DNA from: a virus
DNA: 34,806 bases
Direction: 5' to 3' (one strand)
Virus record (IMG/VR): IMGVR_UViG_3300044846_002736
Location: 1 to 34,806 of that record
The notes under the pieces were generated by a model. It made no database searches and was not told where the DNA came from. It saw nothing but the letters and a program-made list of their open reading frames with translations. The stretch's first letter is position 1, and every line of letters starts with the position of its first letter. The translations under genes were made by a program, and so were the position numbers. Shown in pieces: positions 150 to 23,946 of this stretch.

Positions 150-225
150 AGTCAGGTGGTGTAATTGGTTATCACTAAAAATCTTTGTGAAAAGTATGAT
201 ACAGGTTCGATTCCTGTCCTGACTA
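150..225 (+). tRNA. tRNA-like element without a normal anticodon arm
   Basis: The acceptor stem is perfect: AGTCAGG (150-156) pairs with CCTGACT (218-224), with discriminator A225. The T arm is textbook: ACAGG, loop TTCGATT, CCTGT (201-217). A short D arm GTG/CAC lies at 159-175 and its loop contains GG. The middle part (176-200) does not fold into a 5-bp stem with a 7-nt loop. Instead CTTT-GTGA-AAAG can form a hairpin with a GNRA loop. CCA is not encoded. It may be a degenerate tRNA or a tRNA mimic used for RNase P processing. I do not assign an amino acid. Confidence 0.55.
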
Positions 226-251
226 CTAAAAATTAATAAAAATTAAAAACT

Positions 252-452
252 ATGGAAAAAGCAATTAGAATTACTGGTTTATTATCGTTATTGTTTACGC
301 TATTAACAGTTATTATTTGGGGTGTTGTCGCGATGTGGAATCCACCAATTAATGGTATCGTACACAATTTATTTAGAGTGTCTGTATTATGTTTGCTTGT
401 GATTGGGAGTGTATGGGTTTTTATACTTTCATATCAAGAAACGAAAAATTAA
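252..452 (+). CDS. Small two-helix membrane protein, unknown function
   Basis: This 66-residue protein contains two hydrophobic segments, roughly residues 6-28 and 38-60, joined by a short polar turn with the sequence NPPING. It is therefore predicted to be an inner-membrane protein with two transmembrane helices. I do not recognise a family. It lies between two tRNA-like elements and is followed after 5 nt by another small membrane gene, so both are probably on one transcript with the RNAs. Small membrane proteins in such positions in phages are often lysis or superinfection factors, but nothing in this sequence proves that. The start is preceded by an A-rich stretch and no Shine-Dalgarno motif, as expected for this host group. 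Confidence 0.55.
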   Translation: MEKAIRITGLLSLLFTLLTVIIWGVVAMWNPPINGIVHNLFRVSVLCLLVIGSVWVFILSYQETKN

Positions 453-457
453 AAACT

Positions 458-649
458 ATGGAATTAATATTGTTTGGAATTATTGGATGTTTTATTGGTA
501 GTTTAATTGTATTAATCGCAATAAACTTATTTAAATCAAAACCCTCAATTGACTGTCAGGAGTTAATTAAACAATCTGAAGAACGATTAGAGAAGTCAAA
601 GAAGTATGGGGAAGAGTTAGATAGAATGTTAGAAGAAATGAAAAAATAG
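458..649 (+). CDS. Small membrane-anchored coiled-coil protein
   Basis: The 63-residue product begins with a strong N-terminal transmembrane helix (about residues 2-24) and ends in a charged, Glu/Lys-rich helix (about 33-63) likely to be a coiled coil. The topology resembles an inner-membrane spanin or an Rz-like protein, but it is short for that role and I do not assign it. I chose the ATG at 458 rather than an upstream ATG at 389. The upstream start would overlap the previous gene by 64 nt, and 458 has the same AAAAACT context as the previous gene's start. The TAG stop overlaps the first two bases of the next tRNA-like element. Confidence 0.5.
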   Translation: MELILFGIIGCFIGSLIVLIAINLFKSKPSIDCQELIKQSEERLEKSKKYGEELDRMLEEMKK

Positions 650-733
650 TCAGGTGGCGGAATGGTAGACGCTATACTTAAGCAGTTGAAGCTGGGCAAT
701 TCAACAATACAGGTTCGAGTCCTGTCCTGACTA
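648..733 (+). tRNA. tRNA-like element, possibly Leu(AAG) type, imperfect anticodon stem
   Basis: The acceptor AGTCAGG (648-654) pairs perfectly with CCTGACT (726-732), with discriminator A733. The D arm GCGGAATGGTAGACGC (657-672) is almost the standard bacterial leucine tRNA sequence, and the T arm ACAGG-TTCGAGT-CCTGT (709-725) is perfect. At 86 nt it has the length of a class II tRNA. A loop TTAAGCA (678-684) would give anticodon AAG, but its flanking stem has only three of five pairs. A competing 6-bp hairpin GTTGAA/TTCAAC (685-690/700-705) is stronger. CCA is not encoded. Its acceptor and T arm are nearly identical to the element at 150-225, which suggests duplication. Confidence 0.5.
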
Positions 734-735
734 CA

Positions 736-890
736 AAAAATGCTATTGTGGGAGTGACTTACTTCAACCCTCTGACGGCTGGAAAGACAGCACGAAACAC
801 GTAAACCTAAGTACCTGTACAGCGGTGAGTAACGGGCTAAGTTAGATACAATTCCTCGGAGCTGGGAGTAGAATGCTTAGGAGCGTGTTT
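736..890 (+). ncRNA. Structured RNA candidate between two tRNA-like elements
   Basis: There is no open reading frame here, but there is clear nested pairing. AAACACG (795-801) pairs with CGTGTTT (884-890), and just inside it CCTAAG (806-811) pairs with CTTAGG (876-881). A smaller hairpin GCTG/CAGC (778-791) lies upstream. The two nested helices (13 bp) enclose a 64-nt domain. The right edge of the outer helix is only four bases before the next tRNA-like acceptor, so the RNA may be freed by tRNA-type processing. I recognise no known family. Confidence 0.4.
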
Positions 891-894
891 ATAT

Positions 895-1010
895 AGTGCG
901 GTAGCTTAATTGGTAAAGCGTTCGGTGAGCAATAAAAGGTAGGGAGTCATGACCCAAGAATATAAAGTAAGTCTTGCCGAAAGTTGTGAGTTCGAATCTC
1001 ATCCAAACTA
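895..1010 (+). tRNA. tRNA-like element with a 51-nt structured anticodon loop
   Basis: The D arm GCTT-AATTGGTA-AAGC (904-919), a 5-bp anticodon stem TTCGG/CCGAA (921-925/977-981) and a T arm GTGAG-TTCGAAT-CTCAT (986-1002) are all recognisable. The acceptor AGTGCGG (895-901) against CCAAACT (1003-1009) has two mismatches. The anticodon loop is 51 nt instead of 7 and has its own helices: CAAGA/TCTTG (955-959/972-976) and GGG/CCC around 942-955. It is far too short for a group I intron. It could be an unusual small insertion, or a tRNA-shaped RNA whose anticodon arm has another job. Confidence 0.5.
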
Positions 1011-1734: not shown

Positions 1735-3375
1735 ATGGCAGAAATTATAATTACAGATCCAGTTGGTGGTACAACAACAGCAGTAAGATGCGGCGCAAAT
1801 AATAAAACATTAGGCATCTTTTCAATTGTAGGAAGTGGAAAAAATAACACAAACTCCGGTGGATATTCAAATATTGGTGGTGGTATTTATAACACATCTT
1901 TAAATACTGGTGACTACTCTGTAATAGGAGGTGGTAAATCTGGCTTTACAAATGCTAATTATACAGTAATCGGTGGTGGTGTTTATAACACAACATCTGG
2001 ATGTTATTCATCAATTCTTGGTGGTAGAAGTAATACCACAACATCAAATGGACACTATTCATCAATTCTTGGGGGACGTTTTAATAAAATTCAAAATTGT
2101 TATAGTACAATTGTTGGTGGTTGCTGTAACTTACTTACGGCTTCCGGATCCTCAATACTCGCCGGTTCAAACATTACAGGAAATACTAGTAATACTGCTT
2201 ATGTTCCAAAATTGAATATCCGTGATGTTTTTTCTGGAACACCTATTATGAATTTAGGCTTGGACGCTAGTGGTTTTGTTGTTAGTGGGTCAACACCACA
2301 AGATTTTTATGTTACTGGTGGCTCAATTAATTATGGAACAGGAGACTTAATATTAAATAGACAAAATGGTTTGGTTACAATTCCTGGATTCCACGATTAT
2401 ACTGTGACTGGCGGTACTTATTCGGCAGGTACTGCAACATTTACAAATAACACCGGAGGAACATTTAATGTTAATGGGTTTGTTACTGGCGATACATATG
2501 TGACTGGCGGTACTTATTCGGCAGGTACTGCAACATTTACAAATAACACCGGAGGAACATTTAATGTTAATGGGTTTGTTACTGGTGATACATATGTGAC
2601 TGGGTTAACGTTTAATACAGGAAATTATAATTTGACAATTGGTAGAAATGATGGTGTTTCATTTACTGATACTTTATCAATATTGGCATCAGATCTTACT
2701 GTTACTGGTGGTACATATAATAGTGGTACTGGTGTTGGTACATTTACAAATAATACTGGTGGTACATTTAATGTTACAGGATTTTTGACCGGATATACAG
2801 ATACATACCTTTCAGCGGCTACTTTTTCTGCCGGCACTTTAACTTTAACAAATAGTGATACAACAACAGTAACAGCGTCTGGATTCCAATATCAAAAACC
2901 AGTATTCAATATTGTTGCAGACCCAACTGATGGTGTTTTAGTTAGTGGAACAACAGTAGAAACAATTTCTAAATCAATTTTAATTTCCGCAAATACATTA
3001 ACAACAAATTCTATTTTAGAATTATCTTGGGGTGTACATAGAACAGGTGCTGGTATTGGTTCTGTAACTACTAAAGTTTGGGTTAATTCGGCAAATACTT
3101 TAAGTGGTGCTGTATTGTTAGCAACTGGTGCAAATCAATCAGCAACTAGTAATGGGTATTTAAGAAATTTTAGAGATATACAAAAAATTGGTACTACTGC
3201 ATATGTGTATAACGCAACACAACAAAATTCTAATGATATATCAAACACAAATCCTGCAAGGACAACATTAACGTTTGATAACTCAATGTCAATATATCTA
3301 TTATTTACAGTTACTTGTACCTCTTCTTCTGACCAAGCGTCAATTAATAGAGTTCGATTATCTGAACATTCATAA
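1735..3375 (+). CDS. Repeat-rich tail fibre or adhesin 1
   Basis: A 546-residue structural protein. Residues of about 25-150 consist of degenerate repeats of roughly 14 residues (pattern N-t-x-S-G-x-Y-S-x-I-x-G-G-x), like the head domain of trimeric autotransporter adhesins of the YadA type, which form trimeric beta rolls. This is followed by Gly/Thr-rich repeats with the unit VTGGTYSAGTATFTNN; a 32-residue unit is present in two nearly identical tandem copies and further diverged ones (about 222-360). The C-terminal domain (about 385-546) is a different beta-rich module, possibly the receptor-binding tip. The first 12 residues, MAEIIITDPVGG, are identical to those of fibre 2 at 8192, so they probably share an attachment point on the virion. 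Terminator immediately downstream. Confidence 0.75.
   Translation: MAEIIITDPVGGTTTAVRCGANNKTLGIFSIVGSGKNNTNSGGYSNIGGGIYNTSLNTGDYSVIGGGKSGFTNANYTVIGGGVYNTTSGCYSSILGGRSNTTTSNGHYSSILGGRFNKIQNCYSTIVGGCCNLLTASGSSILAGSNITGNTSNTAYVPKLNIRDVFSGTPIMNLGLDASGFVVSGSTPQDFYVTGGSINYGTGDLILNRQNGLVTIPGFHDYTVTGGTYSAGTATFTNNTGGTFNVNGFVTGDTYVTGGTYSAGTATFTNNTGGTFNVNGFVTGDTYVTGLTFNTGNYNLTIGRNDGVSFTDTLSILASDLTVTGGTYNSGTGVGTFTNNTGGTFNVTGFLTGYTDTYLSAATFSAGTLTLTNSDTTTVTASGFQYQKPVFNIVADPTDGVLVSGTTVETISKSILISANTLTTNSILELSWGVHRTGAGIGSVTTKVWVNSANTLSGAVLLATGANQSATSNGYLRNFRDIQKIGTTAYVYNATQQNSNDISNTNPARTTLTFDNSMSIYLLFTVTCTSSSDQASINRVRLSEHS
2403..2594 (+). repeat. 96-bp in-frame tandem duplication inside fibre 1
   Basis: The 96-bp unit starting at TGTGACTGG occurs at 2403-2498 and again at 2499-2594 with, as far as I can read, a single difference (GGCGAT versus GGTGAT near the end). 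A third diverged copy begins at 2595. Since 96 is a multiple of three, copy-number change would lengthen or shorten the fibre by 32 residues without a frameshift. Confidence 0.85.
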
Positions 3376-4265: not shown

Positions 4266-4748
4266 ATGAATATATTTTTTTTAGATTACGACACTCAAAA
4301 ATGTGCGGAGTATCATTGTGACAAACACGTTGTTAAGATGATTTTAGAAACCGCACAACTACTTTGTGGTACACATTGGGTGATCGGCTCAGAGGCACCA
4401 TATAAATTATCACATAAAAATCATCCTTGTGCGATTTGGACTAGGGAGTCGTTGTCAAATTATCTTTACTTATGTGATCTGGGTTTAGAATTATGTAAGG
4501 AATACACATACCGTTATGGTAAAAGACATAAATCTCAAGAAATTATTGAGTGGTGTTTAGACAGTAAACCAAGTATTAAAGATATTGGGTTTACAGAACC
4601 ACCAAAAGCAATGCCAGATGAATATAAGGTCAATTCAGTGACCGAATCTTATAGGAATTATTATATAGGTGCAAAAAAAGATTTTGCAAACTGGAAAAGT
4701 AGATCAATACCGAATTGGTTTACTTATCAAGGAACTACTGTAATGTAG
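4266..4748 (+). CDS. Conserved phage protein, function unassigned
   Basis: This 160-residue protein has a layout I have seen in many tailed phages: an N-terminal MNIFFLDYD, then [21 protein letters not shown] (about residues 13-33), a central tyrosine-rich part, and a C-terminal [24 protein letters not shown] (about 129-152). The conserved His residues and the aromatic C-terminus recall small DNA-repair glycosylases of the DenV type, but this likeness is weak and I do not name an enzyme. It has its own host-type promoter, unlike the structural genes around it, suggesting early expression. Its last 22 bases overlap the convergent gene ending at 4727. Confidence 0.55.
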
Positions 4749-6397
4749 TTTTTAAATTGATAAAATAAATACCCATTTGTATTTTGACCCATTTGTCCAT
4801 TATCAGAAAGGATTGAAATATCGTAAGTTCCTGGTGTATTATACTGAACGGTAACTGGTCTGTAATTTTGTAATTGATTTAATGGTATTGGTAAAATACC
4901 ACCTCCACAAGATGTTGGTTTTGTATAGGTGTAAGTTGACGAAGCGACAGCATTTAAAAGGTTCAAACCAATTTCTACCCAATCACCAGTTGAAAAACTA
5001 TAGAAATTTAATAAACTAAAATTAGGTACAGAAGAATTAAATGAATTAGTTGGTACTTGTAATGGATTACTAACGTATTGTGCACCCTCAAAATAAAGTT
5101 TATTTAGTGAAAAAACACCGTTTGTTACCGGAAATCCTTGTGACCAATTTGGTAAAACTGTTATTTTACTACCAACCGTTATTGTTTGTGGTTGTATTGG
5201 CGAACCACTTAAACATGTAAGCTCTGAATTAGTTTTTAATTCTAATAAAGAATTTGGACCAATTTTTCTTGGTTGATTATCAGGGCAAGCAACATTTGCA
5301 GACCAAACGGATTTATTATAAGTAACACCATCAAAACCGGTAAATGGAGATGGTGTTCTTACTGTTACATACGCAAAAGTAGGTGTTGCAGCACTTTTAT
5401 AAAAAGTCCATATTTTATATTGACGAAAATTGTCAAAACTAGGTGATCCACCAAAATTCGGAATACCCAAACATTGGGGATTGTTTTCAACATAAATATC
5501 AAATGGGCTTTGACACGGACTAGCTAATATTGTTTGATTATTCCAAATTAAAGTCATTGTATCTGGACTTAATTGGTAATTAAACCCTACTTGTACATTT
5601 CCAATAGCAGTACCCAAGTTTATTTGATAGGTTCTTGTGGTTGGCGCGTTAACATTTGAGCTTGCTGTTAAACCAAAATTAGTACCACACCCTATGATTT
5701 GGATATTGGGTGAAGGTGATGGTGTTGGTGTTGGATTTAACGTTGGTGTTGGGGTTAACGGTATTTTTGATACTGGTATAAACTGTATTGTTTGTGTTGG
5801 GGTTGGGGTAGGTGTTTTTGTAGGTGTAGGAGTCGGAGTCGGAGTCCTTGTTGTAGTTGGGGTTGGTGTTGGTGTTGGTGTAAAACCAATTGTGGGTGTT
5901 ACAGTAGGTGTAGGTGTTGGGGATGGTGGAGGACAAAAACAATCACCACTACCATAAGTAATTACTGAAAAAGTTATTGGCGGGTTAGCCGCATCTACAT
6001 AAGTCTCAATACTATTATTTCTAATACAACCAGACAATGTATACGTTTGACCACCCTCAACAAATTGTGTAAAAATATTACCACAACAATCTTTCCACTG
6101 CATAAATCCCTTATCTTTAGGTATAACTGTTGCACCAACTCTACAATCATACATACAGTCTAAATAACTAGATATTTGTTCGTCAGAAAAAGTACCATAT
6201 TGTGATAAACAATTTCTAATTAAATTATAATCCGTTGAGTTATTCAAAATTGTCGCACAACCTATCAATAAGGTTGGATTGTCTATCCCAAGGGTTGTAC
6301 TTAAACAATTTATCACATTAGTTGGTATTCCAACAGGCCCTACGGTTAATGTTGACGTGTAAGCCGAAAGAATTGATTGTATATTAATAACTGGCAT
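4727..6397 (-). CDS. Cysteine-rich structural protein with Pro-Thr linker, copy A
   Basis: A 556-residue protein with a clear three-part layout. Residues 1-155 are a Cys-rich N-terminal domain (motifs [31 protein letters not shown]). Residues about 156-231 are a low-complexity stalk made almost only of Pro and Thr ([10 protein letters not shown]). Residues 232-556 form a beta-type C-terminal domain. It is a full-length paralogue of the gene at 6418-8109: N-terminal domains and stalks are similar, C-terminal domains are more diverged. The layout suggests a virion-surface or receptor-binding protein with a flexible stalk; the family is unknown to me. Only 20 bases separate it from copy B, so they are probably co-transcribed. 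Confidence 0.65.
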
Positions 6398-6417
6398 ATT
6401 TTTATTTTTATTTTTTA

Positions 6418-8109
6418 TTAAACTACGGTTATATAATTCTTAAATCTGTACCAATAACAAGGTAATGAACCACTTTGTGTGTGAGTTTTTACCGTAATAT
6501 CATATGTTCCTGGTGTGTTATAAACAACACTAAAAGGTTTTAAAGTGTGTAGTACTTGTGGGATAATACTAAACGTTTGTCCAGAACTTGGTCCACATTC
6601 AACAAGATAAGGCCAAGGACCTTGTGATGAGTTAGTATTAAATTTGAATTGAGTACCAAAAAAAGTTAAATCTGGTAAGGCTGTGGAATAATAATAACTA
6701 ACTTGTGGATATTGGGTATTTTGCCAGTTTGGTGAAAACGGTATTGTAGAAACAGACGCAGGATTTGGTGCAGGAAACCCACCTTCAGTCCAAACTGTAT
6801 GAATTATACCACCAACACTATTACCCCCAGTAGGTGGGATTTCCCAAGATGGTAAAATTGTTAATACTGTGTTGGCAGGTATTGTAATTGGCGTTAATGT
6901 ATTACCAGTTAAACAATTATATTGATCTGGGGTTTGAAGTCTTTTTAAAGATGTTGAGCTAATAGGTGCATTAGGTCTGCCGTCTGGACAAGTAAGTGAC
7001 GCACTATATATTGATTCGATACAAGTATCACCTGCGTGTTGAGAGGGTGTTCTCATTACAAGGTATGCAAATGTCGGTGAAGCAGTTGGTTTATGAAACG
7101 AGGCCTTTAGACCACAATTTCCAGTTTCTAAATCACCGCTCAAATAAGGAGCGTTCCAAGGAGCTAATTGTTCACCGGTATTACATTGTGGGTCAGCGTA
7201 ACAAAAAGCGTAATAATTCCCATTACAACCAGTTTCAATTACAGTTTGCCCATCATATATCACAGTCGCTCTATCACTACAGGAAATAACGTCTAATGTC
7301 AATGATACATTACCAATTTGTGTTCCTAAATTCACTTTATATAAAAAAGTTTGTGGTCCAATAATCGTCTGCTCAAGTGTTGGCCCAACTGATGTATTAC
7401 AACCAATTGTAGGTATGTTTGGTGATGGCGTTGGTGTTGGTGGTGGATTAAACGTTGATGTGGGTGTTGGTGATATTTTTGGTACTGGTATAAACTGTAT
7501 TGTCTGTGTCGGTGTTGGTGTAATTGTCTGTGTCGGTGTAATTGTTGGTGTTGGGGTTCTTGTAGGTGTTGGTGTTGTTGTAGGTGTTGGTGTAAAATTA
7601 ATAGTAGGTGTCACAGTTGGCGTTGGTGTAGGTGATGGCGGAGGACAATCACAATTAACACCACCATATGTAATTGATGAAAAACTTATTGGTGGGTTAT
7701 TGTTATCAACATAAGACTGTATTGTGTTTGTTTTAATACAACCAGATAGTACGTAAGTTGTATTAGGAAATACAAATTGTGTTTGTAGATTATTACAACA
7801 ATCTTTCCACTGTATGTACCCTTTACCTAAAGGTATGACCGTTGCACCAACTCTACAATTACTTATACAGTCAATTAAAGCTTGAATTTGCGCGTCAGAA
7901 AAAGTACCATATTGTGATAAACAATTTCTTATATAGTTATAATCAGTTGATGCTGCCATTCCCCAAATACAACCTAAAGGTAGTGTAACGTTTTGGATAC
8001 CTAAAACCGAAGTTATACAGTTTTTAACTTGTTGTGTTGGCATGAACGCTTGGGCGTATTTTGATTGGGAGTATCCGGAAAGAATTGATTTCACATTAAT
8101 AACTGGCAT
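6418..8109 (-). CDS. Cysteine-rich structural protein with Pro-Thr linker, copy B
   Basis: The 563-residue paralogue of copy A starts [12 protein letters not shown] against [12 protein letters not shown] in copy A. That is why I place the start at 8109 rather than at an in-frame ATG 27 bases upstream. The N-terminal domain keeps the QWKDCC and CRVGATVIP motifs. The Pro-Thr stalk (about residues 160-235) carries the same TQTIQFIPV motif near its end. The C-terminal part is beta-rich, with the phrase [10 protein letters not shown] shared in modified form with copy A and a YNTPGTYDI motif near the end, also shared. A late-type motif lies upstream on this strand. Probably an exposed virion protein; function unproven. 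Confidence 0.65.
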
Positions 8110-8134
8110 TGTATAATAATTTTTAAGTTTATAC

Positions 8135-8144
8135 AAATAAATAT
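8135..8144 (-). promoter_or_regulatory. Late-type motif for the minus-strand Pro-Thr genes
   Basis: Read on the minus strand this is ATATTTATTT, 25 nt before the ATG at 8109. It is divergent from the plus-strand copy at 8166, giving a compact two-way promoter region. Confidence 0.45.
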
Positions 8145-8191: not shown

Positions 8192-10351
8192 ATGGCAGAA
8201 ATTATTATAACAGACCCAGTTGGTGGTCAATCAACAACAGTAAGATGTGGACAGTCAAACACTTCTTTGGGGAGATACGCAACTGTTTCTGGTGGTAGGT
8301 TTAATACAAATTCAGGTAGTTACTCAACAGTTACCGGTGGTATTAATAATAAAATTAGAAATACCGGTGACTACTCATTTATTGGTGGTGGTAATTTAAA
8401 TTACGTTGAAGCCAATTATAATGTTATTAATGGTGGAGTATATAATACATCATCAGGTAGTTATAACACTATTGATGGTGGTAGATCAAATACACATACC
8501 AACACATCAAGATACTCAAAAATTGGGGGTAGACAAAACGTTATATCTTCTTTCTATGGATCTATTGTTGGCGGTTGTTTAAACTATGTAAATGGAAGAA
8601 ATGATATTATTGGTGGTGGTTGTTGTAACACAACTACTTTAAATTCAGAATCTTCTGTCATAATGGGTGGTGAAAACAATTTTTCAGATGGTTATGGAAT
8701 GTCAATTAATGGTGGTTACGGAAATACAAGTTCTGGGTATTTTAATAATTCATCTGGAGCTGAAAATACTGGTGAAGCAATGTTTGGTAATGTATCTGGT
8801 TTTCAAAACACAATTTCAAACGCTTACGAATCAACAATTGGTGGTGGTTTTGCTAACACAATTGAGTCTTACACTTTTTCTTGTTTTCACACAATTGGGG
8901 GTGGTAAACAAAACACAATAACTTCATTATACGGATCAACTATTGCTGGAGGTAGGTTTAACAACTCATCAGAAATATTTTCAACCGTTTCAGGTGGTTA
9001 TTTTAACACTGTTACGGGATCGTATTCTTCAATATTAGGTGGCTGTCAAAATACGGTTACTTGTTCTAATTCATTTATTTTATCGTCTAATTCATTACTT
9101 ACAGGTCAAAATTCAGTAATTTTGGGTGGGATTTCAGTTACTGGAACTGCGGACAACACCGTTTATATTCCAAAACTTAATGTTTCATCAACATCTGGAT
9201 TCCCAACATATAAATTAGGTATTGATTATGACAATAATGTTGTTGCATACACGGGCGATGCACTTAATGATATTATAATAAAAGAATCTGTTGGTATACA
9301 ATCAACAGTAAGAACTGATTTATCAAATACCGCAAGTGGTTATCAATCATCAGTATTGGGAGGTGGACTTAACACCGCAACCGGTGATTATAGTACAATT
9401 GGTGGCGGTTCTCAAAACTTAGCGTTAGGCTCTGGATCAAAAGTTGGTGGTGGACAACAAAATACATCACCACAATCATCATTCATTGGTGGTGGTGGTG
9501 GAAACTTTGCTGGTGAGTTTGGTTCAATATCAAGTATTAGTGCTGTAACAAGTGCGACATCAATAGCGGATGATGTTTACATAGTATCAACAACTGGAAC
9601 ATCGTTAGGATTTAACGCAATATTTTCAGTACAGTTTTTTTTAGATTCAATTGTTGATATAACAATTGATAACCCAGGATTTAATTATCTTACTGGTGAC
9701 ACATTAACCGTACCTGGCTACGCGTTTGGTGGGTCCAGTCCAGCCGACGACGTTGCAATTACGGTGCTATCAACAACAACTAACCAATACAACGTTATTG
9801 ATGGTGGTTTTGCAAATGGTATTAGAGGTAATTATTCAAAAGTTGGTGGGGGAAGTTTAAATACTATTTCTGGTGATTACTCATCAACAATTGGTGGAAC
9901 GCAACAACAAATTATTGGTAATCTATCAAGTGCAATTTCATCTAGCGGCGTTACAATTTCTGGTGATAGTATTGTTGTTTTGGGTGTTAATGATATTACA
10001 GCAACAACAAGCAACACAGTTTACTTACCTAGTGTTGAGATGGCTGGTTCCGTTAGTAAAAATATTACAACAGTGGATGCGACTATAGATCCAAATTTAA
10101 ATAATACCGATAGTATTGTGTTTTATGAAACACCATCTCCAGGTGGGACTATCTATTTACCAAGACCAAAAGCTGGTAAAGAAATTATCTTAATAAGAGT
10201 AAGTGGTACAAGTTCAGCTTTTATTGGTTCAATAAGTGGAACAATTAATGGTTCTGGTGGTGTTTTAAATTTACCAACGACACTATATACCGAAACTAGG
10301 TTTATTTCAGATGGTACTGATTGGTATGCAAACGATGGAGCACCAATTTAA
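8192..10351 (+). CDS. Repeat-rich tail fibre or adhesin 2
   Basis: The largest fibre here, 719 residues. It starts with MAEIIITDPVGG as in fibre 1. Residues of about 20-310 and 370-450 are YadA-head-like repeats (S-G-x-Y-S-x-I-x-GG-x-x-N). Between about 445 and 530 a different beta module is inserted (motif DNPGFNYLTGDTLTVPG, then a GG-x-x-x-DDV stretch). A related module interrupts the repeats of fibre 3 at 22789. The repeats then resume, and a C-terminal domain (about 640-719, containing GGTIYLPRPKAGKEI and ISDGTDWYAND) resembles phage fibre ends with a Trp/Tyr-rich tip. Most likely a trimeric fibre binding host surface structures. Confidence 0.75.
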   Translation: MAEIIITDPVGGQSTTVRCGQSNTSLGRYATVSGGRFNTNSGSYSTVTGGINNKIRNTGDYSFIGGGNLNYVEANYNVINGGVYNTSSGSYNTIDGGRSNTHTNTSRYSKIGGRQNVISSFYGSIVGGCLNYVNGRNDIIGGGCCNTTTLNSESSVIMGGENNFSDGYGMSINGGYGNTSSGYFNNSSGAENTGEAMFGNVSGFQNTISNAYESTIGGGFANTIESYTFSCFHTIGGGKQNTITSLYGSTIAGGRFNNSSEIFSTVSGGYFNTVTGSYSSILGGCQNTVTCSNSFILSSNSLLTGQNSVILGGISVTGTADNTVYIPKLNVSSTSGFPTYKLGIDYDNNVVAYTGDALNDIIIKESVGIQSTVRTDLSNTASGYQSSVLGGGLNTATGDYSTIGGGSQNLALGSGSKVGGGQQNTSPQSSFIGGGGGNFAGEFGSISSISAVTSATSIADDVYIVSTTGTSLGFNAIFSVQFFLDSIVDITIDNPGFNYLTGDTLTVPGYAFGGSSPADDVAITVLSTTTNQYNVIDGGFANGIRGNYSKVGGGSLNTISGDYSSTIGGTQQQIIGNLSSAISSSGVTISGDSIVVLGVNDITATTSNTVYLPSVEMAGSVSKNITTVDATIDPNLNNTDSIVFYETPSPGGTIYLPRPKAGKEIILIRVSGTSSAFIGSISGTINGSGGVLNLPTTLYTETRFISDGTDWYANDGAPI

Positions 10352-10593: not shown

Positions 10594-10624
10594 TTGACAG
10601 ATTAAAAAAAATGTCGTAACTTTG
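10594..10624 (+). promoter_or_regulatory. Host-type promoter of the large RNA
   Basis: TTG 10594-10596 (in ACTTGACAG), a 20-nt spacer and TAACTTTG 10617-10624. Transcription should begin near 10630, just before the first hairpin of the RNA. Confidence 0.75.
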
Positions 10625-10652
10625 TAAAACAAATCAGGAAAAGTCCTGAAAC

Positions 10653-10664
10653 GTTCTTTGAAAA
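10653..10664 (+). promoter_or_regulatory. boxA-like antitermination element in the large RNA
   Basis: GTTCTTTGAAAA matches the boxA sequence of bacterial rRNA leaders, where NusB/S10 bind to prevent premature termination. A second copy (GTTCTTTGAAA) lies in the tmRNA leader at 12344-12354. Confidence 0.6.
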
Positions 10665-11499
10665 TTGAATTATCCATTCAGGAGTAAGTAATGAAACTGA
10701 TAAAGATATTGGGCCGTGTATAGTCCATAAAATAAACTGGGAAACTAGGATAAAGTGAGTAAGTTGTGTTAACTTATTTGCGTCTTGATAAATCTTCGGA
10801 TTTATTGAGGTCAAGTACACAAGCGGGATACCGTTTAATCTTTAGTACCGAGGGCAACGCTGTAGGGAAAGTGGTTAAATGAATAGGCGATGTGGGTCGT
10901 CTAGTTGAGGTGGGAACACCAATAGGAATAACCCGTAGGAATTATGCAAAAAATAGAGTTTCCAATTTTATTATTGCGTGTTCCATTATGATAGGATACT
11001 TAAAACCGAAAGGTATGTTAACGTACAAGTGGTGTTGTTATTAACCTTGACCGTCCCCTACCAAGGGTTCGATCACGAAGTAGTCTAGAAATATGGAAAT
11101 GGGGACATTTCACGAGGCAGTTTGGTATTTTGTTATTCAAAAGATAATGAAGCTTAAGACGGACCACTGCTTTGACCAATCCACGACACAAAAACTTTTA
11201 TGTTAATAAACTAACATTTATAAACTATAAAGCAAAAGTGTCCGTCACGATATAATGGAAGTTACCCACCTATTCACTGGCAGTCAGTGGAACGTGATAA
11301 CCGCAAGTTTGACCGTATTTTTATGAAAAATCTCTAGGTCGTCGAAGACTGAATCAGGACGCAATCTTGAGGAGACAGGAGTAGTAAGAGAGTAGTTATG
11401 TCGTCAAGAAGTGATTGGTCTAACCAATCGGTAATGAGTGTTACAGGACAAAATCCTGTGGATAAGAGTAGAATCAATAATGACTCGAAAGACACTTAC

Positions 11500-11525
11500 A
11501 AAAACTGTAATCTCAGGTTTTTATT
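11500..11525 (+). terminator. Possible terminator of the large RNA
   Basis: AAAACTG followed by CAGGTTTTT can form an imperfect hairpin (one bulged G) ending in T residues. It is weak; the transcript might continue into the lipoprotein gene. Confidence 0.35.
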
Positions 11526-11641: not shown

Positions 11642-11788
11642 ATGAAAAAATTATTTTCAATTTCTTTAGTGATTTTCACGGCAATTTCTCTTATGACATC
11701 TTGTGGTGAAAAAGGAACAGGAAATGCAACTGCTGACGCAACACCAGAAGCAACCGTTGTAGTAAAAGATACTACTGCTGTTAAGTAA
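11642..11788 (+). CDS. Small lipoprotein
   Basis: The 48-residue product has a clear lipoprotein signal peptide. A basic start MKKLF is followed by a hydrophobic core (about 5-17) and the lipobox LMTSC, so Cys21 would be lipid-modified after cleavage by signal peptidase II. The mature part is only about 28 residues, rich in Ala, Thr and Asp (GEKGTGNATADATPEATVVV). A protein this small and surface-located could act in superinfection exclusion, as some phage lipoproteins do, but that is inference. An upstream in-frame ATG would extend it into the large RNA and is not used here. A strong terminator follows. Confidence 0.65.
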   Translation: MKKLFSISLVIFTAISLMTSCGEKGTGNATADATPEATVVVKDTTAVK

Positions 11789-11932: not shown

Positions 11933-12340
11933 TGGTGGATCCGGAGAGTTTCGAACTCTCGTCCGGCTCGTCTTGTCTAAAAGACAACTACATGCTTAGG
12001 TTGGTATTTTCTAATACCCCAAAATATTTGGTTTTAATTTGACCAAAAACAAAGTTGACCTGTTCTTCACCATCGTAAATCAACAACCAATGGACGACTC
12101 GATTTCGGGTTCAGTCGTATTCCACCTTAGTCACTTCTGTTCCTGAGCGTATGTGAACCGGCTCGCGTTTCCGTAAACTTATTAAGCTACAGTAACTTCA
12201 GAACCTCTTAGTAAACCAAGAGTTTCCATTTTGTTTAGCAAATTGCCAGTTGTTTTTCTAAATCAGTTTTTAACGAGATTAATTCAGTCTCGGCATGCTT
12301 CTAATATTCAACCAACGCCCGTCAATTCCAATACGGACCC
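11933..12340 (-). ncRNA. ssrA: tmRNA (ssrA), phage-encoded
   Basis: On the minus strand, the 5' end GGGTCCGTATTGGAATTGACGG (12340 downward) has the tmRNA signature. Its first seven bases pair with CGGATCC (11943-11937; one G-U), followed by an encoded ACCA ending at 11933. The T arm GAGAG-TTCGAAA-CTCTC is intact. At 408 nt it is a normal one-piece tmRNA. It rescues stalled ribosomes and adds a degradation tag. The tag reading frame ends with GCT TAA TAA (12187-12179), the standard layout. Reading back to a Gly resume codon (12205-12203, as I recall for Bacteroidota) gives GSEVTVA. It lacks the common C-terminal ALAA. The resume codon is inferred, but the end ...EVTVA is fixed by the frame. 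Confidence 0.85.
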
Positions 12341-12343
12341 ATA

Positions 12344-12392
12344 TTTCAAAGAACTATATACAAATATAAGTATATTTTTAAATATATACAAA
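12344..12392 (-). promoter_or_regulatory. tmRNA promoter and boxA-like leader
   Basis: On the minus strand: TTTG (12392-12389), a 20-nt spacer, TATATTTG (12368-12361), then GTTCTTTGAAA (12354-12344), three bases before the mature 5' end. The leader would be removed by RNase P. Confidence 0.65.
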
Positions 12393-14897: not shown

Positions 14898-14930
14898 TAA
14901 AAAAGGAGGGTTTTTTAATCCTCCTTTTTC
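14898..14930. terminator. Two-way terminator between peptidase and clpC-like genes
   Basis: AAAAAGGAGG pairs with CCTCCTTTTT around TTTTTTAAT-type loop. The A and T runs on both sides allow use in both directions. It overlaps the last codons of the minus-strand gene. Confidence 0.8.
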
Positions 14931-16975
14931 TTTCTACCACGTTTTTTTGGTTCTGGTTTTGTCCTATCTTCAATTTCTATTGTTTGATCTTCACCTTCTC
15001 CTTTAACAAACAACATATATTCTTTTCCTTCTACAACATCATTTGTTAAAATCTTTTCAGAAATTAAATCTTCTATTTTATCCTGGATTGCACGTTTGAT
15101 TGGTCTTGCGCCGTATTGTTCATCAAACCCAACTTTTGCTATTAAATCAACCACAGAAGATTCATATGAGACCTTATATCGCATAGAATTAAGTCTACCA
15201 ATCAATTTTTCTATTTCAAGTTTTACTATTTTATCAATATGTTCTTTTACTAAAGAATTAAAAATAACAACATCATCAATTCTATTTAAAAATTCAGGAG
15301 CAAAGAACTTACGTAATTCTTTTTTCAAAATGTCTCTTTTGTATTCTTCTTGTACAACATCACTATTGTTACTAGTTTTAAAACCAACACCAGAACCAAA
15401 ATCTTGTACTTTTCTAACACCAATGTTTGATGTCATAATAATTAAACAATTTTTAAAATTAATTTTTCTACCAAGACCATCAGTCATATGACCATCATCT
15501 AACATCTGGAGTAGTGTTGAGAAAATGTCTTTATTTGCTTTCTCAATCTCATCAAATAAGATAACTGAATAAGGTTTGTTTTTCGCTTGTTCGGTTAATT
15601 GTCCCCCTTCTTCGTGACCAACATATCCTGGAGGTGACCCAATAAGTCTTGAGATTGTGTGTTTTTCTTGATATTCTGACATATCAACACGAATTAAACT
15701 ATCTTCACTACCAAAAATTTCTTTTGCCAACTTTTTAGCTAAAAACGTTTTACCAACACCGGTAGATCCTAGAAATATAAATGAACCAATTGGTCTATTT
15801 GGGTCTTTAATCCCCACTCTATTTCGTCTAATTGCTTTTGATATTTTTTTAACAGCTTCTTCTTGTCCGATTACATAACCATTAAGAGAATCTTCTAAAT
15901 TAACAAGTGAGTTTTTTTCATCAATGTTAATTTTATTGACTGGGATTTTGGTCATATTTGAAACAACCTCATAAATTAGATCTTCTGGAATACCTCTTTT
16001 ACTATTTTTTAATTCTTCTTCAAACTTCTTTTTTTCTTCGTCAAGTTTCATTAAGATATTTTTTTCGCGGTCACGAAGTTCAGCAGCCATTTCATATTTT
16101 TGTTTTTTAATAACATCAGCCTTTTCTTGTTTAATGTCAGTAGCCTCTTGTTTTAATTTCTCAATATGATCCGGAAGTTTAATGTCAATTTGCATACGTG
16201 AACCAACCTCATCTAAAATATCAAATGCTTTATCTGGAAATTCACGATCGGTAATATATCTATCTGCTAACTCAACACATAACCAAAGTGATTCGTCGGT
16301 GTAGTGTACTTTGTGGTGTTCTTCGTACTTATCCTTACTTTGTTTTAAAATTTCAAACGTTTCATCTTTTGTTGATGGATCTACAATTATTTTTTGAAAT
16401 CTTCTTTCTAACGCACCATCTTTTTCAAAATGTTTTCTATATTCATCTAGTGTTGTCGCGCCAATACATTGGATTTCCCCTCTTGATAAGGCTGGTTTAA
16501 AAATATTTGATGCGTCAAGTGAACCAGAACTATTTCCCGCACCAACCATTGTATGTATTTCATCTATAAAAATTATAATATTTGGACTTACTTGTAACTC
16601 CTCAATTATAACCTTCATCCTTTCTTCAAATTGTCCACGGTATTTTGTACCGGCTACAACTGAATTAATATCTAATGATACAATACGTTTATCTGATAAA
16701 TTTTTAGGACATTCTCCAGCGTGGATCATCATAGCTAATCCCTCAACAATGGCCGTTTTTCCAGCACCAGGTTCACCAATAATAATGGGGTTATTTTTCT
16801 TTCTTCTAGATAATACTTGTGCAATACGAAGAATTTCTTTTTGCCTTCCAATTACTGGATCTAGTTTTCCTTGTTCTGCTAGTTTAATCAAATCCTTACT
16901 GAAATTATCTAAAACTGGTGTACCACCGTCTTTTTTCTTTCCTTTATCGTCGCCGTCTACAAATTCTATTGCCAT
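14915..16975 (-). CDS. ClpC-like AAA+ unfoldase without N-terminal domain
   Basis: The 686-residue product has both AAA+ modules of Clp/Hsp100 proteins. D1 has Walker A GEPGAGKT (67-74) and Walker B IIFIDEIH (134-141). D2 has GSTGVGKT (403-410) and VILFDEIEKA (471-480). Between them is a UVR-like middle segment (about 276-310, EMAAELRDREK) typical of ClpC rather than ClpA. A GVGF loop (529-532) sits where ClpA and ClpC carry the ClpP-docking tripeptide, so pairing with host ClpP is likely. The usual N-terminal adaptor-binding domain (about 140 residues) is missing; the protein starts close to the D1 module. I chose ATG 16975 over an upstream TTG. A near-consensus host promoter precedes it. 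No ClpP gene is in the window. Confidence 0.88.
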   Translation of the reverse strand: MAIEFVDGDDKGKKKDGGTPVLDNFSKDLIKLAEQGKLDPVIGRQKEILRIAQVLSRRKKNNPIIIGEPGAGKTAIVEGLAMMIHAGECPKNLSDKRIVSLDINSVVAGTKYRGQFEERMKVIIEELQVSPNIIIFIDEIHTMVGAGNSSGSLDASNIFKPALSRGEIQCIGATTLDEYRKHFEKDGALERRFQKIIVDPSTKDETFEILKQSKDKYEEHHKVHYTDESLWLCVELADRYITDREFPDKAFDILDEVGSRMQIDIKLPDHIEKLKQEATDIKQEKADVIKKQKYEMAAELRDREKNILMKLDEEKKKFEEELKNSKRGIPEDLIYEVVSNMTKIPVNKINIDEKNSLVNLEDSLNGYVIGQEEAVKKISKAIRRNRVGIKDPNRPIGSFIFLGSTGVGKTFLAKKLAKEIFGSEDSLIRVDMSEYQEKHTISRLIGSPPGYVGHEEGGQLTEQAKNKPYSVILFDEIEKANKDIFSTLLQMLDDGHMTDGLGRKINFKNCLIIMTSNIGVRKVQDFGSGVGFKTSNNSDVVQEEYKRDILKKELRKFFAPEFLNRIDDVVIFNSLVKEHIDKIVKLEIEKLIGRLNSMRYKVSYESSVVDLIAKVGFDEQYGARPIKRAIQDKIEDLISEKILTNDVVEGKEYMLFVKGEGEDQTIEIEDRTKPEPKKRGRKKKED

Positions 16976-16987
16976 AATCTTTTTCTT

Positions 16988-17019
16988 CAAAATTTAGGTA
17001 TAAAATTACGGTATGTCAA
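16988..17019 (-). promoter_or_regulatory. Near-consensus host promoter of the clpC-like gene
   Basis: On the minus strand TTG (17019-17017), a 20-nt spacer, then TAAATTTTG (16996-16988), one base longer than the TAnnTTTG consensus; the ATG follows 12 nt later. Confidence 0.45.
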
Positions 17020-22788: not shown

Positions 22789-23946
22789 ATGCCTTTAAAT
22801 GTAGATTTAATAAACGCAGGATCAATATTTATCAATGGAAGCCCAATATTGGACTTATATGAAACCGGTTCTGGAAGTTGCTCAACACAAAGAATTGATG
22901 TTTGCAACGAAGCAAATGGGTGTTATTCCGTTGTTAGTGGTGGAAGATGTAATACAGCACAAGCAAGATACTCAACAATCAGTGGTGGAAGATGTAATGA
23001 TGCTGGTGTTATCGGTACTATTAATAGTTGGAACGACTCTTACAGTGGTTCTTTAAACACAGGAGGTCCATTTGGTCCTTATTCCCCAACTAGCGCATCA
23101 ACAATTAGTGGTTATGGCGCTGAGTTTGAATTTTCTTTTAATGGGGGTGGTTCTTACAATGTTGATCGTATTAATGGTGGTTCTGGATATGTGGATGGTG
23201 ATATATTACTTTTTGATGGTAGTATATTTCCTAGTGGAACAACTGGTGTTGATAATGTTACTTTATCAAATATTTATGTTAGTAATTATGGTTATGCAAC
23301 TGTAGGTGGTGGGTGTAGAAATACCGCATCTGGTGAATACTCAACAATTTCTGGTGGATATGAAAACACAACTTCCGGTTATGCATCATTTATTGGTGGT
23401 GGTGCAAATAACACAATGACTACAGCATCATGCTACTCAACTATTGGTGGTGGTGATGATAATACAATTCTTAAAGGTGAAGTATCAACTATTGGTGGTG
23501 GTGAAAATAACACAATAAGTGGATTTTATTCAACAATTAGTGGCGGTTATGATAATAGAATTACAAATTCTTGCGCAACAATTGGTGGTGGTTCTGGTAA
23601 CGTATCAAGTGGCTTTACTTCAACAGTAAGTGGTGGTCGTCAAAACACATCAATTGGTGATTATTCATTTGTTGGTGGTGGACGTTCTAACACATCAAGT
23701 GGTAAATACTCAACCGTAAGTGGTGGTTATAATAACACATCAATAAATGGTTGTTCTGCAATACTTGGCGGTCAATCTAATACAGCACAACACGATAATT
23801 CATTTATTGTTGGTTGTGGAATATTAAGTACTGCGGCAAATACAACACACGTAAACTGTTTGCATTTTAGTAATATACCAACAAGTTCAGCGGGTCTTGC
23901 GCCAGGAACAGTTTGGAGTGATTCTGGAATGTTGTGTATCGTATAA
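22789..23946 (+). CDS. Repeat-rich tail fibre or adhesin 3
   Basis: The 385-residue protein has YadA-head-like repeats (S-x-YSTISGGRCN, then S-G-x-YSTVSGGxxN) in two blocks, about 45-75 and 165-345. Between them lies a module with DRINGGSGYVDGDILLFDG (about 125-143), related in outline to the insert of fibre 2. The N-terminus MPLNVDLINAGSIFING is different from that of fibres 1 and 2, so it may attach elsewhere. The end is short (GTVWSDSGMLCIV), without a large tip domain. Cys residues are unusually frequent in the repeats. Probably a trimeric beta-roll fibre or head decoration. It sits just before the terminase, away from the other fibres. Confidence 0.7.
   Translation: MPLNVDLINAGSIFINGSPILDLYETGSGSCSTQRIDVCNEANGCYSVVSGGRCNTAQARYSTISGGRCNDAGVIGTINSWNDSYSGSLNTGGPFGPYSPTSASTISGYGAEFEFSFNGGGSYNVDRINGGSGYVDGDILLFDGSIFPSGTTGVDNVTLSNIYVSNYGYATVGGGCRNTASGEYSTISGGYENTTSGYASFIGGGANNTMTTASCYSTIGGGDDNTILKGEVSTIGGGENNTISGFYSTISGGYDNRITNSCATIGGGSGNVSSGFTSTVSGGRQNTSIGDYSFVGGGRSNTSSGKYSTVSGGYNNTSINGCSAILGGQSNTAQHDNSFIVGCGILSTAANTTHVNCLHFSNIPTSSAGLAPGTVWSDSGMLCIV

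Follow-up and report, generated by a model that had tools for sequence, protein, structure and literature searches.

The window (the whole stretch of DNA analyzed here, an IMG/VR virus record of 34.8 kb) encodes a GOLLD RNA, and its membership in this known class is secure. Probably, the RNA is a full-length GOLLD of about 0.8 kb, which constitutes a transcription unit of its own in a phage and carries an rRNA-type leader. This GOLLD leader, composed of a Bacteroidota-type promoter, a hairpin and the word GTTCTTTGA, looks to be the new element. The sequence anatomy of an rRNA-type leader is secure, and a role in antitermination is likely; we consider with fair confidence that the phage GOLLD is placed under an rRNA-style leader and antitermination of the host type. 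The features of the region are collected in Table 1.

Table 1. Features of the GOLLD and tmRNA region, in window positions
Feature	Position	Strand	Basis
Bacteroidota-type promoter: TTGACA 10594-10599, TAACTTTG 10617-10624	10594..10624	+	sequence
Leader hairpin TCAGGA-AAAG-TCCTGA, boxB-like in position	10634..10649	+	sequence
Presumed boxA GTTCTTTGA of GOLLD leader	10653..10661	+	conserved in relatives; matches 16S leaders
GOLLD 5' domain, boundaries approximate	10709..11112	+	covarying helices 10711 to 11111
Hairpin, invariant GAAA loop; candidate L11a of solved GOLLD	10737..10748	+	47/47, stem covaries
GOLLD 3' domain, RF02032	11113..11519	+	Rfam match over whole model
Variable linker and closing helix 11158-11164/11240-11246	11158..11246	+	7 pairs in 47/47
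Hairpin, self-complementary loop dinucleotide (CG here); candidate L21a, bridge B8	11336..11350	+	
Phage tmRNA gene, convergent with GOLLD	11933..12340	-	RF00023, 99 bits; ARAGORN silent
tmRNA leader: TATATTTG promoter element 12361-12368, presumed boxA GTTCTTTGA 12346-12354	12346..12368	-	sequence

A cmscan of the whole window against the 4227 families of Rfam 15 at their gathering scores yielded GOLLD, tmRNA and tRNA and no other family. The GOLLD model (RF02032), whose gathering score is 150 bits, was matched over its entire length (model 1-416 of 416) with 284.6 bits and an E value of 1.6e-80. In the preliminary description of this DNA, the region had been taken for a giant ornate RNA, either belonging to a known class or forming a new one, to be checked against the GOLLD, ROOL, HEARO and OLE models. 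The former alternative was correct, while the latter is ruled out because RF02032 is matched over the full model; ROOL, HEARO and OLE gave no match at gathering score in the window. The model covers the conserved 3' half of GOLLD, the 5' domain being located outside of it.

The region had also been described as about 0.8 kb without a credible gene, and only two ORFs of at least 60 aa touch it: one of 72 aa on the minus strand (10602-10820) and a GTG-started frame of 116 aa, which begins at 11438 and lies mostly downstream. In 47 relatives (see below), the longest ATG frame in the region measured 20 to 117 aa (median 50; lengths alone compared). The phage setting is borne out by the IMG/VR origin and by genes for a terminase, a portal, a head maturation protease and a major head protein. 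The host probably belongs to the Bacteroidota, as judged from the type of promoter and leader rather than from a host label. A phage or prophage location near tRNA genes, which serves as a criterion for GOLLD, was likewise found, with three tRNAs detected by cmscan among the tRNA genes at the left end of the window (150-1010). The tRNA at 895-1010 (plus strand; Rfam 45.6 bits) is 116 nt long, contains an insert in the anticodon arm (TTCGG...CCGAA) and was passed over by ARAGORN; two similarly long tRNAs (107 and 114 nt) occur in one relative (L035). The intergenic stretch between phage tRNA genes at 735-895 (plus strand) is hairpin-rich, apparently non-coding and without an Rfam match at gathering score.

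The pattern used to collect viral relatives combined two words conserved in the 3' domain and retrieved at least 119 loci. Among the matches listed, 103 loci (window copy included) had at least 920 nt upstream, those with less being left out, and dereplication below 90% identity retained 49 of them. Two of the 49 (L015 and L056), judged not to be Bacteroidota-like, were scored as misses in the boxA conservation count and omitted from the census, the alignment and the upstream survey, which leaves the set of 47; in the boxA site census and the upstream/downstream survey, L001 was replaced by the window sequence. Identity among the 47 aligned relatives averaged 0.76, the lowest value being 0.61. 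Two pattern hits in genome contigs (L123 and L124) contained no GOLLD according to Rfam and were dropped. Two relatives from huge phages of 635 and 642 kb ('phages' collection) were both GOLLD by Rfam. A query with the Rfam consensus retrieved 27 records from the 'phages' collection, including Acinetobacter, Mycobacterium, Streptococcus and roseobacter phages; six of the seven phage records fetched were GOLLD at gathering score, and Curtobacterium phage Shrew fell below it. None of 398 Bacillota genomes had a GOLLD match, in a search whose controls also gave none.

At least one two-sided compensatory change was detected in 124 of the 188 consensus pairs (47 dereplicated relatives, helices of three or more pairs), versus 8-22 pairs when the 3' partners were slid by 1-3 columns; the consensus structure was derived from the same alignment as was scored and is thereby favored over the slid controls, and the gap is still large. 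Covariation among homologues, whose absence had been named in the preliminary description as decisive against the RNA, is thus evident. The covarying helices lie on either side of 11113, in a conserved 3' region and in a structured, less conserved 5' region, and since the helices span 10711 to 11519, one leader helix (boxA with 11406-11410) aside, both domains of GOLLD are real. An internal helix of 15 pairs had been proposed to join 11158-11173 to 11229-11246: its outer seven pairs stood, four of them with two-sided changes, whereas 15 pairs are too many, because the pairs inward of the first seven are not standard. The pairing suggested between the two ends (10664-10675 with 11460-11478) is ruled out as a feature of the family, being without a single two-sided compensation in the 47 relatives; its 3' core GGAUAA is invariant, its 5' side varies or is missing, and a given standard Watson-Crick pair can be formed in 28 to 36 of the 47.

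The many hairpins noted earlier, including UUCG and GNRA-type loops, were located in the form of a UUCG loop within the hairpin 10782-10788/10805-10811 and of the GAAA loop listed in Table 1. The latter hairpin may correspond to L11a of the solved GOLLD. Residue numbers in PMC12286853 suggest that the hairpin at 11336-11350 is L21a, whose half-shell contact is described there with the same GC/CG switch. Of the 46 relatives having the hairpin, 38 show GC as its loop dinucleotide and 8 show CG, so that a half-shell contact dinucleotide of this kind, a further criterion for GOLLD, appears in 46 of 46 at a presumably equivalent position. Neighboring loops in the segment 11336-11370 switch together, GC occurring with GGCA (38 relatives) and CG with CGCAA (8, the window included). 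If these loops are the self-kissing pair known from the cage, the joint switch may keep the two contacts from mixing; it may also be a single event.

The host-type promoter and, in the title of the preliminary description, the boxA-like element had both been pointed out correctly, the latter being its most informative hint. Among the loci listed, the exact word GTTCTTTGA was found in the leaders of 99 of the 103 full loci and 45 of the 49 dereplicated ones; in dinucleotide-shuffled leaders it appeared in 10 of 4900. In a census of 9-mers in the 920-nt region of the 49 dereplicated loci, it ranked third with 45, the top two reaching 46. The four misses are L056, with an upstream sequence apparently identical to that of a Streptococcus prophage locus (L135); L015, which has a tRNA-like sequence in the leader region and lacks a promoter of this kind; L068, which differs by one mismatch; and L050, in which the word is absent.

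The promoter element TAnnTTTG is kept in the relatives: of the 45 dereplicated loci with boxA (among loci listed), 43 have it no more than 70 nt 5' of the word. Between the end of this element and boxA there are 26-28 nt in 34 of the 43 loci and 16-58 nt in the others. The segment between them folds below -1 kcal/mol in 40 of the 43 loci, but also in 2134 of 4300 shuffles; this criterion is too weak and was therefore replaced by a shuffle comparison, in which, for 37 of the 43 loci, no more than 5 of 100 shuffles attained the folding energy of the segment. A hairpin between promoter and boxA is present in the window and absent from some relatives, and in three loci the segment is merely 16-19 nt long.

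For comparison, 15 leaders of 16S rRNA from 11 genera were chosen from Bacteroidota rows of the plasmid collection, since a search of the viral contigs gave no Bacteroidota 16S. The exact word GTTCTTTGA occurs in 12 of the 15 (8 genera), and the order promoter-hairpin-boxA is the same as in the GOLLD leader. In these 12, a distance of 135-236 nt separates it from the GGCTCAG word that follows close to the 16S start, and in nine of them TAnnTTTG lies upstream with foldable sequence between. Thus, the phage leader is like that of a Bacteroidota rRNA operon in promoter type, hairpin, word and order; in contrast, it drives a viral 0.8-kb RNA, a tmRNA or tRNAs. The Flammeovirga leader carries GTTCTTTTGA instead of GTTCTTTGA, and in both Flavobacteriia leaders read (Flavobacterium and Chryseobacterium) the exact word is absent in place; Flavobacteriia could be hosts, which counts against the boxA reading.

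The word is presumed to be the boxA of Bacteroidota rRNA leaders. In studies of Escherichia coli and relatives, boxA is described as the binding site of NusB and NusE (S10), in a complex that prevents Rho-dependent termination (PMC5725501) and contributes to 30S biogenesis (PMC10250234). By analogy, the Bacteroidota word would act like the E. coli boxA, NusB-S10 binding included, and the GOLLD leader may bind Nus factors and confer resistance to Rho.

The same word precedes other stable RNA genes, among them the tmRNA gene of the window. In 15 of the 29 loci long enough for the comparison, a convergent tmRNA lies no more than 1.9 kb downstream from GOLLD, and tmRNA was confirmed by Rfam in all 10 loci scanned. 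From 37 rows with tmRNA-like starts, two were unscorable (one false match, one at a contig end), and all 35 others contain GTT[CA][TA]TTGA in the leader, as GTTCTTTGA (14), GTTATTTGA (19) or GTTCATTGA (2). In the 47 dereplicated loci, GTTCTTTGA occurs in 45 GOLLD leaders, 8 tmRNA leaders, 7 pre-tRNA sites (at most 150 nt upstream of a tRNA) and 13 other sites, the respective averages for 150 permuted words being 0.03, 0.00, 0.01 and 6.4. Over the 1,121,771 bases of viral loci and window, redundant contigs included, 101 copies were counted in GOLLD leaders and 65 elsewhere, with about 14 expected from composition. In the one bacterial genome compared, a Prevotella replicon of chromosome size that is catalogued as a plasmid and on which its own tmRNA was not found, the word shows no clear enrichment (34 versus 30 for the reversed word). 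One of the 30 word sites examined there (of 34) lies in the 16S leader, and none of the 30 tRNA genes examined (of 31) has GTT[CA][TA]TTGA within 250 nt upstream.

Scans of viral contigs for promoter plus boxA produced at least 156 distinct sites, of which 24 were assigned to tmRNA, 11 to tRNA or tmRNA, 11 to GOLLD-like RNAs and 110 to other positions; the assignment was made by a crude script, which evidently overlooks some of the tmRNA and tRNA genes. Among those listed, some of the 'other' sites precede protein genes and many look like chance. The signal is thus not confined to stable RNA genes. The two huge phages (LR756502 and LR745206) contain 27 motif sites, two before tRNAs and one before GOLLD; the GOLLD of LR745206 has a boxA, and that of LR756502 has none. 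In the vicinity of the window tmRNA, a 48-aa frame resembling a small lipoprotein (MKKLFSISLVIFTAISLMTSCG...) lies between GOLLD and tmRNA (11642-11788, plus strand), and a Clp/ATP-dependent protease ATPase (phrog_4871, E 1.2e-234) is encoded a few kb away (14915-16990, minus strand).

The closeness of the word to the 5' ends of tmRNA and tRNA would also suit a processing position, and the leader word might be a processing or protein-binding site common to tmRNA, tRNA and GOLLD precursors rather than a signal for antitermination. We regard this as unlikely, since its distance to the first helix of GOLLD varies between loci (725-867 nt from boxA to the 3' word) and since promoter, hairpin and boxA follow the order of rRNA leaders. 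It is improbable, too, that GTTCTTTGA is a structural part of GOLLD, in which it would pair with 11406-11410 or with the UUCAAAAGA loop at 11136. The consensus fold does pair UUCUU (10654-10658) with the purine run at 11406-11410 (AAGGA or AAGAA), and the central pairs can be formed in 46 of the 47 relatives; however, not one two-sided change was seen, the Rfam consensus retains the purine run, and the GOLLDs of four other phage groups are without the word nearby. Moreover, the word also precedes tmRNA and tRNA genes and sits in rRNA leaders. Conservation of a functionless word through close kinship of the loci alone is hardly credible, for although all of the loci come from one pattern scan and most share the 26-28 nt layout, the flanking sequences diverge between loci and the hairpins differ or are missing while the word stays, RNA identity falls as low as noted above, and the word recurs at unrelated genes.

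A related arrangement was observed outside the Bacteroidota. The roseophages DSS3_MAL1 and MD18, which are closely alike, carry GCTCTTTGACAATTTGG; GCTCTTTGACA has a single occurrence in each genome of 149 kb, and the reversed word has none. This sequence precedes a tRNA-Glu gene, followed by more tRNA genes, GOLLD (which has a tRNA inside its span) and tmRNA. Three 16S leaders of Rhodobacterales contain GCTCTTTGACATTG (Cereibacter), GTTATTTGACATTG (Ketogulonicigenium) and GCTTTTTGACATTG (Paracoccus), the latter two words being identified by eye, and over its first ten bases GTTATTTGACATTG is equal to the variant found in the phage tmRNA leaders. The roseophage GCTCTTTGACA is like a Rhodobacterales-type boxA and stands at the head of a tRNA-GOLLD-tmRNA cluster. 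The roseophage GOLLD would share one transcript with this boxA, which lies 1.5-2.4 kb from its 3' domain; in MD18, a protein gene is annotated between the two.

In the six named phages outside the Bacteroidota, no strict form of boxA was found at a distance of up to 900 nt from the 3' domain; a search tolerating two substitutions gave scattered matches in four of the six, none of them convincing. When all of the upstream sequence was considered, one distant match each turned up in the Mycobacterium locus and in one of the Streptococcus loci. The GOLLDs of the Acinetobacter, the Mycobacterium and two Streptococcus phages have no boxA at the RNA, which rules it out as a feature of every GOLLD.

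In the mechanism proposed for the window, GOLLD would be transcribed from the host-type promoter as a separate unit, and its leader would imitate the start of an rRNA operon with promoter, hairpin and boxA. Host NusB and S10 would bind the transcribed boxA and give rise to an antitermination complex on the host RNA polymerase, by which the untranslated GOLLD would be completed without Rho-dependent termination; folding help of the kind given to rRNA would perhaps be extended to GOLLD as well. Such a leader would be explained by the nature of the product, a long untranslated RNA being a natural target of Rho and requiring long-range folding during its synthesis. The RNA would fold into its 5' and 3' domains and probably assemble into a hollow cage of 14 copies, as the analogy with the solved GOLLD suggests for the window RNA. 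Because the same signal precedes the tmRNA and some tRNA arrays, GOLLD may be included in a set of viral stable RNAs expressed in an rRNA-like manner, and such a set would point to the translation phase of infection.

A role of GOLLD in translation is suggested by its company (tRNA, tmRNA and boxA), together with the ribosome pull-down mentioned for GOLLD in PMC12286853. A broader proposal, to which we give somewhat less than even chances, is that a boxA-controlled stable-RNA regulon exists in phages of at least two unrelated host groups, and that GOLLD is a cage for parts of the translation machinery, aided in folding or loading by the S10 complex. If true, a host rRNA antitermination signal planted before GOLLD, tmRNA and tRNA arrays would cause the host to make a giant viral RNA of rRNA-like character, together with its partners in translation, as it makes ribosomes. 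An rRNA-type leader would bring non-coding RNAs of viruses under boxA control; it also suggests a way in which the cell is brought to synthesize GOLLD and ties the latter to phage tmRNA and tRNA, and the nine-base boxA offers a simple experimental handle on GOLLD.

Signals of the boxA type occur on a bacterial non-coding RNA in CRISPR arrays and, as the lambda nut sites, in phage protein-gene operons. Outside rRNA, the same type of signal has been described for suhB and other genes, in this case bacterial, in a survey that by its own statement left non-coding RNAs aside (PMC5725501). GOLLD was reported in 2009 (reference in PMC12286853) and is described as a molecule of unknown function in PMC12286853. 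There, the cryo-EM structure of GOLLD env-38 (2025; 833 residues, including the 5' domain) is a closed 14-mer with an empty interior, into which the linker points. The window RNA is like GOLLD env-38 in several respects: it has the complete 3' domain and a 5' domain with covariation, exceeds 0.8 kb when the leader is counted, is encoded by a phage close to tRNA genes, and contains both the GAAA loop and the self-complementary dinucleotide. Unlike env-38, it has a promoter of its own, an rRNA-type leader and a linker without tRNA. Neither boxA nor antitermination gave a hit in PMC12286853. ROOL, which is also a giant cage-forming RNA (PMC12286853, PMC5643018), had no match in the window, and boxA gave no hit in PMC5643018. 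Among the open-licence papers listed, none by its title linked boxA with GOLLD or with bacteriophage tmRNA; either could be in print elsewhere.

Several other elements were observed in the window and its relatives. Proteins rich in short GG..N repeats (three) and related PT-repeat proteins (two), perhaps virion surface parts, are encoded at 1735-3375, 8192-10351 and 22789-23946 on the plus strand and at 4727-8136 on the minus strand of the window; the protein at 8192-10351 has no PHROGs match. Near tRNA genes (e.g., L086:2059-2148, plus strand), often directly after promoter, hairpin and boxA, lies a conserved small RNA that measures about 90 nt and contains GGGAAACTCGTAAAGT and GGTGAAACGAGAGT. 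It was found in L006, L026, L027, L035, L057, L077, L086, L090, L120, L212, L237, L250 and L302, and is a candidate new RNA, the L086 copy matching no Rfam family. Its main stem covaries by eye (TTGACTCA/TGAGTCAA, TTAAATCA/TGATTTAA and TTAACACA/TGTGTTAA). In nine loci the element following boxA is this small RNA, and in L086 a tRNA comes next. Finally, promoter-boxA leaders also occur as converging pairs about 0.5 kb apart, followed by GCAGAATAAAGA-GGGAAAGAAAC..., in L314 (1891-1922, plus strand, and 2381-2413, minus strand) and L327 (1455-1487, plus strand, and 1948-1981, minus strand); a leader of this kind with GCAGAATAAAGA-GGGAAAGAAAC is also present singly in the Prevotella replicon (L158, NC_022111).
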